Source: Halospina denitrificans
Lineage (GTDB): Bacteria > Pseudomonadota > Gammaproteobacteria > Pseudomonadales > Oleiphilaceae
Assembly (NCBI RefSeq): GCF_004364635.1
Contig: NZ_SOAX01000004.1
Location: 1-64,000, forward strand
Reading direction: 5' to 3'
Length of the DNA: 64,000 nucleotides
Shown here: positions 9,578-19,630 of the stretch, one piece after another
Position numbering within the stretch: position 1 is the stretch's first letter
Layout of the letters: each line of letters begins with the position of its first letter
Notes under the pieces: model-generated
Databases searched by the model: none
What the model was told of the DNA's origin: nothing
Seen by the model: only the letters and a program-made list of their open reading frames with translations
Program-made: the position numbers and the translations under genes

Positions 9578-9915
9578 TGACGGATGTACTCAGGGAGCTG
9601 GGCGCGGTACTCGAGCAGCGCAAAAACAGCGCCAGCCCGGATGAGTCCTATGTGGCGAAGCTTCACCACAAGGGGCTCAACAGGATTCTGGAGAAAGTCG
9701 GCGAGGAATGTACCGAAACATTGATCGCTGCCAAGGACGCGGAGCGCTCAGGCGACAATAATGAACTGATTGCGGAGACAGCGGACCTATGGTTTCACAG
9801 CCTGGTCATGCTGTCGCACCAGGGCGAAGGGCCGGAAGCCGTGCTCAATGAGCTGGCCCGGCGCTTCGACCTCTCCGGGCTCGAAGAGAAGGCCCGGCGG
9901 ACAAAAGACTACTGA
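9577..9915 (+). CDS. hisE: Phosphoribosyl-ATP diphosphatase
   Basis: 112-residue MazG-like all-helical pyrophosphohydrolase, second step of histidine synthesis. The EVGEECTE-like metal motif appears as [14 protein letters not shown] near residues 41-54, with the [13 protein letters not shown] helix near 65-77. The last codon and the stop at 9913-9915 lie inside the left arm of a large palindromic element, so the end of the gene is part of that repeat. No separate terminator follows. Confidence 0.95.
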
Positions 9916-10124
9916 TACGTTTGTTAGTAAGCGGACAGGTGTTTCCAGAACCGTCCGGAGCCATGGATGGCGGAGGCGAGCGTACAGGGGTTGACGCGGT
10001 TGAGCGTAAACGGGCTTACAGGAAGTAAGCCCTGGACCTTTTAGCGGAGCAGGACAGCGCAGCTAAAAGGTATTCACAGCGTGTTCTGGAAACACCTGTC
10101 CGCTTACTAACAAACGTATCAGTA
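9910..10124. repeat. Compound palindromic element 1 with 42-base perfect arms
   Basis: Bases 9910-9951 are the exact reverse complement of 10083-10124 (42 bases, no mismatch). The interior of 131 bases begins with a core (about 9953-9989) and ends with its other part (about 10070-10082). Both parts match the loop of the second element at 14097-14234 read on the other strand. Between them sits about 77 extra bases. These fold into their own hairpins: GGGCTTAC 10012-10019 with 10025-10032, and a 10-base stem at 10036-10045 with 10062-10071. The left arm contains the hisE stop; the right arm ends 22 bases before tatA. Confidence 0.9.
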
Positions 10125-14084: not shown

Positions 14085-14096
14085 GAGTAGGCGCCC

Positions 14097-14234
14097 GTGT
14101 CTGATTCGGCCGGCGGGGCGGGAGGGTTTTCCCGGGAACCGCTTTGAATACATCCATGTACGCTGCGCCTCCGCCATCCATGGCTCCGGAGCTTCCCGTG
14201 AAAACCCTCCCGCCCCGCCGGCCGAACCAGACAC
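14097..14234. repeat. Palindromic element 2 with 42-base arms and shared core
   Basis: Bases 14097-14138 pair with 14193-14234 over 42 positions with two mismatches. The arms are GC-rich and unrelated in sequence to the arms of element 1. The 54-base loop (14139-14192), reverse complemented, matches both parts of the element 1 interior, including the string GCCATGGATGGCGGAGGCG. It lies between the CLC gene (stop at 14084) and the convergent ubiI end (14247), so it may act as a bidirectional transcription barrier, but neither side has a T tract. Confidence 0.88.
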
Positions 14235-14246
14235 TAACTTAGAGTA

Positions 14247-15503
14247 TTAAATGTCGAATCTCGGGAGGGGGTGACTCATGCCCATGGCTTCCGAGGCAAT
14301 CCGGTTTTTGATGAACGTTTGCCCGTCCAGCCACCGCATGCCGGTATTTCGCAGCCAGCGTAGGGGCATTTCGTCGCGGCCGAAGAGTTGTTTGAAGCCT
14401 TCCATGGCCGCCATCAGGGAGAGGTTTTCCACCTTGCGGCGGCGCTGGTAGCGCTGTAGGGCGCTGAGGTGGGCGGGGTTGAGGCCGCGGTCCTGGGCTC
14501 GGCGGATTTCGTCGGCGAGGACGGCGACGTCGGCGAAGCCGAGGTTGACGCCCTGCCCGGCCAGGGGGTGGATGGTGTGGGCGGCGTCGCCGACCAGGGC
14601 GACGCCGGGGCGGATGTATTCTCGGGCGTGGCGTTGGCGCAGGGGGATGGCGTGGCGTTTGGAGATTTCCTGTACGTCGCCCAGGACGTTTTCGAGTGCG
14701 TCGCCGAGTTCCATGGCAAAGGCGCCGTCGTCGAGGTTCATCAGGCGTGCGGATTCGGGGACGTCCTGCGACCAGACGATGGAGACGAAGTGGTCTGAGT
14801 GCTGTTCGTTGGCCATTGGGAGGTAGGCGACGGGGCCGGTGCTCATGAAGCGTTGCCAGGCGGTGTGCTGGTGGGCGTTTTCCAGGCGAGCGGTGCAGAC
14901 GATGGCCTGTTGGTCGTAGTCCCATTCCCGGGTGGCCAGGCCGGCCCATTGGCGGATGCGGGAGTTGGCGCCGTCGGCGCCGATGACCAGCGAAGCTTCG
15001 AGCCAGCGGCCGTTGCCGAGCATGACGGCGGAGCCGGTGGATGTGGGGCGCCACTGGCGGACGTGCTCGCTGTCCAGCCAGCGTATGCCGGGGCTGTGTT
15101 CCATGGCCTGGATAAGGGCGCTGAGGACGAAGCGGTTCTCGACGATGGTGCCGAGGCGTTCGGTCTGCAGGTCCGCCGAGTCGAAGTGGATGCTGCCGGT
15201 GCCATCCGCATCCCATACACGCATCTGTCGATAGGCGCAGTGGCGCGCCGACTCGATCACTGGCCAGGCACCCAGGTCTGTCAGAAGTTGGCGCGTGGAC
15301 TCCGTGAGGGCGCTGACACGGGGTTCGAAGTCATGCACGGACTCGACCGGGTCTGCAGGATGAAGCAGGCTCTCGCGGGGCTGGGGCTCGATCACGGTTA
15401 CGTTCAGCTCAAGGCGGGACAGCGCCAGCGCCAGGGCAGCGCCGACCATGCCGCCGCCGACAATCGCGATCTGGGTACGTTCGGTCATTGCCTCTTCACT
15501 CAT
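14247..15503 (-). CDS. ubiI: FAD-dependent 2-octaprenylphenol hydroxylase (UbiI type)
   Basis: 418-residue flavoprotein hydroxylase with the Rossmann GGGMVGAALALALSR at the N-terminus, the DG motif VIGADGANSRIRQWAG near 170, and the second FAD motif LVGDAAHTIHPLAGQGVNLG near 302. It follows ubiH in the same order as E. coli ygfB-pepP-ubiH-ubiI, so UbiI (C5 hydroxylation in ubiquinone synthesis) is the best assignment; UbiF-like regiospecificity cannot be excluded. The start at 15503 overlaps the ubiH stop; an inner ATG at 15488 is an alternative. Confidence 0.88.
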   Translation of the reverse strand: MSEEAMTERTQIAIVGGGMVGAALALALSRLELNVTVIEPQPRESLLHPADPVESVHDFEPRVSALTESTRQLLTDLGAWPVIESARHCAYRQMRVWDADGTGSIHFDSADLQTERLGTIVENRFVLSALIQAMEHSPGIRWLDSEHVRQWRPTSTGSAVMLGNGRWLEASLVIGADGANSRIRQWAGLATREWDYDQQAIVCTARLENAHQHTAWQRFMSTGPVAYLPMANEQHSDHFVSIVWSQDVPESARLMNLDDGAFAMELGDALENVLGDVQEISKRHAIPLRQRHAREYIRPGVALVGDAAHTIHPLAGQGVNLGFADVAVLADEIRRAQDRGLNPAHLSALQRYQRRRKVENLSLMAAMEGFKQLFGRDEMPLRWLRNTGMRWLDGQTFIKNRIASEAMGMSHPLPRFDI

Positions 15504-19400: not shown

Positions 19401-19407
19401 TAGGTCA

Positions 19408-19589
19408 GCTCTCTGGGCTGTGCGATTACCGGATGTTGTCCTCGAGCCGATGCATACTCAATAAGGGGGCCTCTCCCTGGTGATGTGAGCAAGTCCTCCA
19501 TGCAGAGGAAAGCCTGATTCACCATTCAGCGACCCCCGCCTTGGACTCTAGGGTTCAAGGGCAGAATCCGGAACGGCAGCCCGGGGGGT
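19408..19589 (+). ncRNA. ssrS: 6S RNA
   Basis: The RNA holds sigma-70 RNA polymerase in stationary phase by mimicking an open promoter. About 182 bases lie between zapA and fau, the standard place. The closing stem pairs CTCTGGGCTG near 19411-19420 with CAGCCCGGGG near 19578-19587. The interior carries the hallmark GAGCCGAT motif after the 5' strand, and CTTGGACTCTAGGGTTCAAGGG-type sequence near 19539-19562, close to the CCAAGGGTTCAAGGG of E. coli 6S. The exact ends are estimated. Confidence 0.88.
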
Positions 19590-19630
19590 TTTATACCCTC
19601 CGCATCCCTGTAACGCAGACGAGCAACCTC

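Follow-up and report, generated by a model that had tools for sequence, protein, structure and literature searches.

A high-copy palindromic repeat with a conserved TwoAYGGAY-like tip and private, paired stems in Halospina denitrificans and related bacteria

Repeats of the REP/BIME, ERIC and NEMIS types are dispersed, intergenic and palindromic, often lie near gene ends and in inverted pairs, and have a conserved stem sequence. The palindrome described here (hereafter, element 2) belongs to a repeat type that is also dispersed, intergenic, palindromic, close to gene ends and found in inverted pairs, but it is the tip that is conserved, whereas most of the stem is private to each copy. Its tip recalls the CsrA-sequestering small RNAs of the CsrB/RsmZ type, which carry GGA in hairpin loops where a CsrA dimer can sit; unlike these, repeats of the element 2 type have two sites per ordinary copy, a very long stem and many loci, and show no conserved upstream sequence that could be a promoter. 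A further likeness is to TwoAYGGAY (RF01731, clan CL00106), whose outer stem sequence is poorly conserved and whose two AYGGAY-type terminal hairpins agree in order and strand with those of element 2; this family is known from human gut, gamma-Proteobacteria and Clostridiales, according to an excerpt of PMC2864571. Compared to TwoAYGGAY, the copies in the genus of element 2 fall below the curated score, are dispersed and occur in high copy number, and their stems are near-perfect, with a modal length of 29 bp and both sides changing in concert; the available portions of papers naming the family mention neither a high copy number nor rewritten stems. Finally, arm homogenisation and spacer inversion are described as marks of template switching at quasi-palindromes (excerpts of PMC8604942 and PMC8794818). 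Matched two-arm changes and loop inversion were seen here as well, but template switching would in this case hit many copies of one family repeatedly, with whole stem blocks exchanged.

Element 2 lies in a 64,000-nt stretch of Halospina denitrificans DNA (the whole of which is called the window), in a genome designated G000. The features of the locus, together with a second member of the family (element 1), are:

9910..10124, plus strand: element 1, same repeat family as element 2, core on the plus strand with the 15-mer at 9960-9974, 131-nt loop
12255..14084, plus strand: ClC-type chloride channel gene, convergent with element 2 (NCBIfam matches under the models' own cut-offs)
14110..14221, minus strand: element 2 unit, 112 nt with 29-bp arms, pairing running on to 14097-14234, core on the minus strand (covariance-model R1 match G000:C4:14110-14221:-)
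14193..14234, minus strand: element 2, 5' arm with respect to the core strand (29 bp at 14193-14221, continuing to 14234)
14173..14184, minus strand: element 2 hairpin 1, GCC-AUGGAU-GGC, GGA in the hexaloop (predicted from sequence)
14149..14160, minus strand: element 2 hairpin 2, UAC-AUGGAU-GUA, GGA in the hexaloop (likewise predicted)
14097..14138, minus strand: element 2, 3' arm with respect to the core strand (29 bp at 14110-14138, continuing to 14097)
14247..15503, minus strand: UbiH/UbiF/VisC/COQ6-family hydroxylase gene, convergent with element 2, its 3' end unlike that of its relatives at element 2

The palindrome that the initial annotation had placed at 14097-14234 was confirmed: the two 42-nt arms (14097-14138 and 14193-14234) are 95% complementary across a spacing of 54 nt, and the fold lies >11 SD below shuffles, whichever strand is taken. 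The annotation had also read the loop, on the opposite strand, as the core of element 1, and the two match exactly over CGCCTCCGCCATCCATGGC. The shared arm length of 42 was measured in both elements but is partly accidental, given that stem ends range from 26 to 45 across 63 copies, with 29 the most frequent (16/63). As for the arms, which were said to have no sequence in common, whole arms are no closer than column shuffles, yet a CTTTCCGGGAA-like inner segment is common to most copies, as is GG at positions 17-18 (60 and 61/62). The extra DNA of element 1 lies inside hairpin 2 and contains a further AGGA-loop hairpin (by eye); a 131-nt loop is also present in copies L023 and L028.

The genome that contains the window (3.32 Mb) has 63 occurrences of the 15-mer core (reversed control: 0), and inverted arms are present at all 63 exact-core copies, in line with the prediction of many copies rather than only two. 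A covariance model (R1) was built from 60 of these, leaving out the three with a 131-nt loop; because 150 candidates were scored per genome, R1 counts are lower bounds. R1 matched at least 126 sites in G000, the richest of its genus, and at least 67, 60, 4 and 55 in the four congeneric genomes, where the count of 4 belongs to a 68%-complete genome. Six genomes of genus g10, which we take to be Marinobacter, gave at least 133, 142, 129, 119 and 62 matches and, in the sixth, 0; one g7 and one g11 genome gave at least 14 and 2, and four genomes of other genera gave 0. Accordingly, nine genomes carry 55-142 dispersed copies each, as lower bounds. Carriage on plasmids or phages was rejected, as one copy, queried at E 1e-5, had no match. 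Among the literature matches listed, the two papers containing the 15-mer core were unrelated by title, and the portions seen of those on Marinobacter palindromic, REP or CsrA repeats or stem-loop repeats held nothing on this family.

The loop is 53-54 nt long in 59 copies, 131 nt in three and, according to the alignment, 59 nt in one, and contains two small hairpins with GGA hexaloops of the ANGGAN type. The hairpin stems vary yet stay paired (UAC/GUA, UCC/GGA, GAUGAC/GUCAUC, GGUCGCC/GGCGACC and others); for example, the UAC/GUA of hairpin 2 is UCC/GGA in other copies. Two ANGGA loops, again on varied hairpin stems, were found in 20/20 further copies without the exact 15-mer, all picked by R1, a model that favours ANGGA loops. 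Exceptions are G004 283762 and 371552, which have a shortened CAGGATG loop, and G004 70467, in which the GGA of hairpin 2 is lost. The CsrA SELEX consensus is RUACARGGAUGU, mostly in a hexaloop with AC/GU pairing (excerpt of PMC7652899). Hairpin 2 of element 2, taken with the preceding G, is one position off this consensus and the match is exact in some copies, such as L003 and L007, whereas hairpin 1 has the hexaloop but closes with CC/GG instead of AC/GU. One csrA gene is present per genome in four near-complete genomes.

Mismatches in the stem bear on which strand acts. Across 105 copies from the genus, core-strand G-U mismatches within the 29-bp arms outnumber A-C mismatches by 40 to 17 (p = 0.003, a value that assumes independent copies, which orthologues are not), with a split of 10 versus 1 in the window genome and 30 versus 16 in the other 42 copies; A-G mismatches (46/144) exceed G-U (40/144). 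The G-U bias points to the core strand as the likely folding strand, and strand-biased mutation could contribute to it. From motif and fold, we infer transcription of the copies and their candidacy for CsrA binding.

Under the curated cut-offs of Rfam, the window and three loci gave 6S RNA only, 20 further copies gave no match, and 20 loci of related genomes gave only an unrelated 5'ureB sRNA. The 6S RNA gene is at 19407-19591 in the window (RF00013, 91.3 bits). In a permissive scan, TwoAYGGAY matched the core strand with 33.0 bits at L021 and 40.7 bits at L262, the latter being the best score seen in the genus against a curated cut-off of 43; in a genome search with the family, element 2 reached 35.6 bits over 14090-14241, under the same 43-bit cut-off. 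One of six copies scanned permissively reached E 0.05 for RF01731, and the scan also gave many microRNA hairpins on both strands, some outscoring TwoAYGGAY, which are attributed to chance similarity with a long perfect stem. Genome searches with RF01731 gave 21 matches in G000, including element 2 and none above the cut-off, and 0 in 14 control genomes. Across the taxonomic family, 114/163 genomes had a match and 19 had one above the cut-off, under more stringent filters at the expense of weak matches (G002 and G004 fell to 0). In all 12 above-cut-off loci that were fetched, an inverted-repeat stem of 20-32 bp carries a pair of A-N-GGA hairpins; the stems are mismatched in five, and the arms are alike in L310 and L312 and different in the rest. 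Element 2 itself has the tandem AYGGAY-type terminal hairpins above an outer stem (AUGGAU twice), and the strict score for membership is attained in related genomes, not by element 2. The likeness of the repeat family to TwoAYGGAY is well supported, and element 2, judged by its sequence, apparently works like a TwoAYGGAY/CsrA-site RNA.

The reading that we favour, and consider marginally probable, is that the repeat is a high-copy, REP-like form of TwoAYGGAY RNA, in which template switching in DNA and selection together maintain the pairing of the stem and the tip is a candidate CsrA-binding head. The core strand would form a stem at least about 29 bp long, presenting two GGA-hexaloop hairpins about 21 nt apart, a twin-hairpin layout that would suit one CsrA/RsmA dimer. 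Copies read through from a neighbouring gene could then serve as a distributed CsrA site or a decoy in mRNA ends. In DNA, the long palindrome would be a local hot spot, where template switching by fold-back synthesis, perhaps following a break and its repair, would replace stretches of the stem, copy the change to the other arm and sometimes invert the loop. The stem would thereby stay paired while its sequence turns over, leaving each copy with private arms. Several points stand against the RNA part of this reading: the stem exceeds by far the length that CsrA requires, hairpin 1 does not close as the SELEX sites do, the exceptional G004 copies depart further, and G-U pairs in the stem are rare, which is odd for ordinary RNA drift.

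The genomic setting of the copies, called with a home-made codon-score script, also bears on a purely selfish alternative, in which a REP-like DNA element without any RNA role folds into the substrate of a transposase or integrase encoded elsewhere that recognises the GGA hairpins. Such an element would explain the high copy number, the intergenic location (1/63 copies overlaps a called gene by >60 nt), the position of 45/63 copies within 60 nt of a gene 3' end, the inverted neighbouring pairs, and the existence of occupied and empty sites. Relative to genes, 20 of the 63 copies are convergent, 33 tandem (20 and 13 by orientation) and 10 divergent, and the upstream gene is antisense in 23/63; this mixture is equally compatible with a DNA repeat and an mRNA element. 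However, Y1 (REP-type) transposases gave 0 matches in G000, the genome richest in copies, as well as in G001, G002 and G003 (68% complete), with 2 in G004, and identity as a REP/RAYT repeat was rejected on the absence of a match in G000. The place of the elements, and mostly their orientation, is moreover kept between species: in the compared blocks, each of the 14 G004 elements with flanks in G002 and G001 is matched in both genomes by an element in the corresponding position (one counterpart serves two adjacent G004 copies, and a further five G004 copies fall outside these blocks). The CsrA-like loops and the excess of G-U over A-C on one strand also argue against a selfish element, which we regard as unlikely. 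No promoter-like conserved upstream sequence was seen among 62 copies in register. An intrinsic terminator was rejected because no T-run directly follows the stem; among the aligned copies, no T-rich column run occurs outside either arm. Inverted pairs of elements 0.1-0.8 kb apart are frequent (L034, L051, L018, L001), some of them conserved across species.

The favoured combination of template switching and selection draws on stems that differ among copies yet pair. In 62 register-aligned copies, 54-62 are paired at each of positions 1-29 and 29/62 at position 30, after which pairing drops toward background by about position 43. In an alignment of 60 copies (A1), 99.3% of 2400 pair cells are standard; relative to the commonest pair, 547 cells are changed on two sides and 6 on one side, compared to 127.5 two-sided cells in shuffles and <=95 in slid structures. 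Resemblance in the loop does not extend to the arms, as the outer 18 arm positions of 13 identical-loop pairs differ at 10.1 positions, versus 9.9 for all pairs.

Orthologous elements, compared between species-level genomes, show how the arms change. G004 and G002 are 95-96% identical over most of one measured block, with one 91% stretch. In 13 same-orientation comparisons between them (377 pair positions), 286 positions are unchanged, 32 are changed on one side and 59 on two sides (49 paired in both species, 10 unpaired in one), whereas independent change at 4% per site would by our arithmetic give about 0.6 two-sided changes. Arm identity is 80% (604/754 bases). Outside the arms, in a profile taken around elements only, the median identity is 72% in the first 50 nt and 89% in the next 50 nt, followed by 93-98%; the intergenic median is 96% for element-free regions (140, of which 13 are below 85%) and 82% for element-bearing regions (12). 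At five loci with both flanks >=92% identical, the arms differ by 21% (24 two-sided and 14 one-sided changes out of 145, counted by hand). One flank is under 90% identity at 7/13 loci, so diverged alleles may account for part of the arm divergence. Stem variability that is both concerted and local is well supported; the arms change in place after an element has settled, and this turnover makes them private.

Individual loci reveal the form of the changes. Loops are inverted in two orthologous comparisons: at the kdsA-eno locus (gene names from a reading of the proteins), L299 and L296 have the outer 12 bp in common and an inverted core, and G004 641385 is inverted relative to G002 and G001, with 28/29 arm pairs unchanged. 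L223 and L250, whose orthology is inferred from their common outer arms, have the same outer 14 bp, down to the mismatches, but an inner 16 bp that has been replaced in both arms. Three relatives in the window genus with 93-98% identity at kdsA-eno differ in about a third of the pairs (comparisons with G004). In contrast, the arms of five g10 species at the same locus (L276, L277, L279, L281 and L291; 91-94% identity) are the same except for two one-sided changes, and G002 292094 shows mostly one-sided changes (9) compared to G004, as if decaying. Both marks of template switching, joint arm change and loop inversion, were seen between relatives but are absent in the five g10 orthologues, and this unevenness counts against rewriting as a general process. 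Template switching, the proposed step, is the best mechanism for changes that are paired, fast and sometimes inverted. Arm-to-arm copying leaves the source of new stem sequence unexplained.

An alternative is recombination or gene conversion, in which arms would be exchanged either among the copies of one genome or, at a given locus, between diverged strains. The flanks of the elements have diverged too, and some orthologues differ in the core and keep their arms: G004 23683 and its G001 counterpart have 26/29 arm pairs the same and 14 loop differences, and G004 23267 and its G002 counterpart 25/29 and 15. Among the 63 paralogues, which sample about half of the model-detected copies, no donor-recipient pair was seen; the closest two arms differ at 4/29 positions against 3-6 in the column-shuffle null, and no pair was closer than shuffles, by which a paralogous donor was rejected. 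Exchange is unlikely in our estimate, and with unsampled copies or strains as partners it is a serious rival to template switching.

If the family were instead an ordinary structured RNA under selection, the arms would drift by single compensatory mutations and nothing special would happen at the DNA level. Strong covariation, the excess of G-U over A-C on the core strand, and the exclusively one-sided changes among the five g10 kdsA-eno orthologues are consistent with this. Against it, the rate of change in the arms is about four to five times that of intergenic DNA without elements, an increase in substitution that selection for pairing alone should not produce; two-sided changes outnumber one-sided changes by 59 to 32 between G004 and G002; and one-sided intermediates are nearly absent among paralogues. 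Drift of this kind is already disfavoured by these data, and we consider it improbable.

Occupied and empty sites bear on how elements arrive. Both window element sites are empty in G001, G002 and G004. A conserved core in private arms, at sites occupied in one species and empty in another, agrees with the initial annotation. For G000 copies with syntenic flanks, the site is occupied in 9/20 cases in G002, 9/21 in G004 and 9/15 in G001, counts that refer to fetched blocks and include the neighbour's element of an inverted pair. At kdsA-eno, 25 of 30 loci are occupied by script, L289 and L294 have an interrupted element by eye, and three (L286, L297 and L298) are empty. The insert in L289 and L294 is different-looking and lies at a point similar to that of the extra DNA in element 1. 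In the clearest pair, L275 (occupied) and L286 (empty), the difference is a segment of 162 nt that takes in the two arms and extends about 25 nt beyond each. A weak consensus, GCACC(A/G)AA(A/C)CC, was noticed by eye just beyond the 3' arm of copies, and together with the 162-nt difference it suggests a unit longer than the palindrome.

The further proposal that insertion makes an inverted copy of the flank, so that one arm would derive from the DNA flanking the insertion site and the second arm from its inverted duplication, is very improbable and unsupported as a rule, because arms do not match the empty sites of relatives: at 11 G000 sites empty in G002 or G001, 0/17 comparisons reached p < 0.02 for either arm (a test of low power, as DNA just outside the arms reached p < 0.02 in 3/34), and the segment differing between L275 and L286 contains both arms. 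Element 2 provides a partial exception, since its clcA-side (3') arm resembles the ubiquinone-hydroxylase gene end at the empty site of the two near-identical relatives G002 and G004 (0/1000 and 2/1000 shuffles as good), but not that of G001 (829/1000).

Matched changes in RNA stems are usually read as slow compensatory evolution. Here, with >100 copies in one genome and orthologues at about 95% identity, two-sided stem change is far faster than change in element-free intergenic DNA, so that stem maintenance by a mutational mechanism versus selection becomes directly measurable. The little-studied Rfam family TwoAYGGAY would also become a source of candidate CsrA sites across the genomes of these bacteria. 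A more far-reaching version of the favoured reading, which we consider possible but doubtful, is that a bacterial RNA family has become a repeat multiplying throughout the genome, in which the tip is selected, the palindrome rewrites itself into private double-stranded addresses, and the head would bind CsrA.

Two other repeats were noticed in the related genomes. L110 (G004:C11:666292-666386) is a separate palindromic repeat with a CCTGAACCTGTAGGAGCTTGCTT arm and a REP-like look, and L147 (G002:C1:92676-94020) has four inverted-repeat matches in 1.4 kb with 104-nt loops, unlike the element 2 family.
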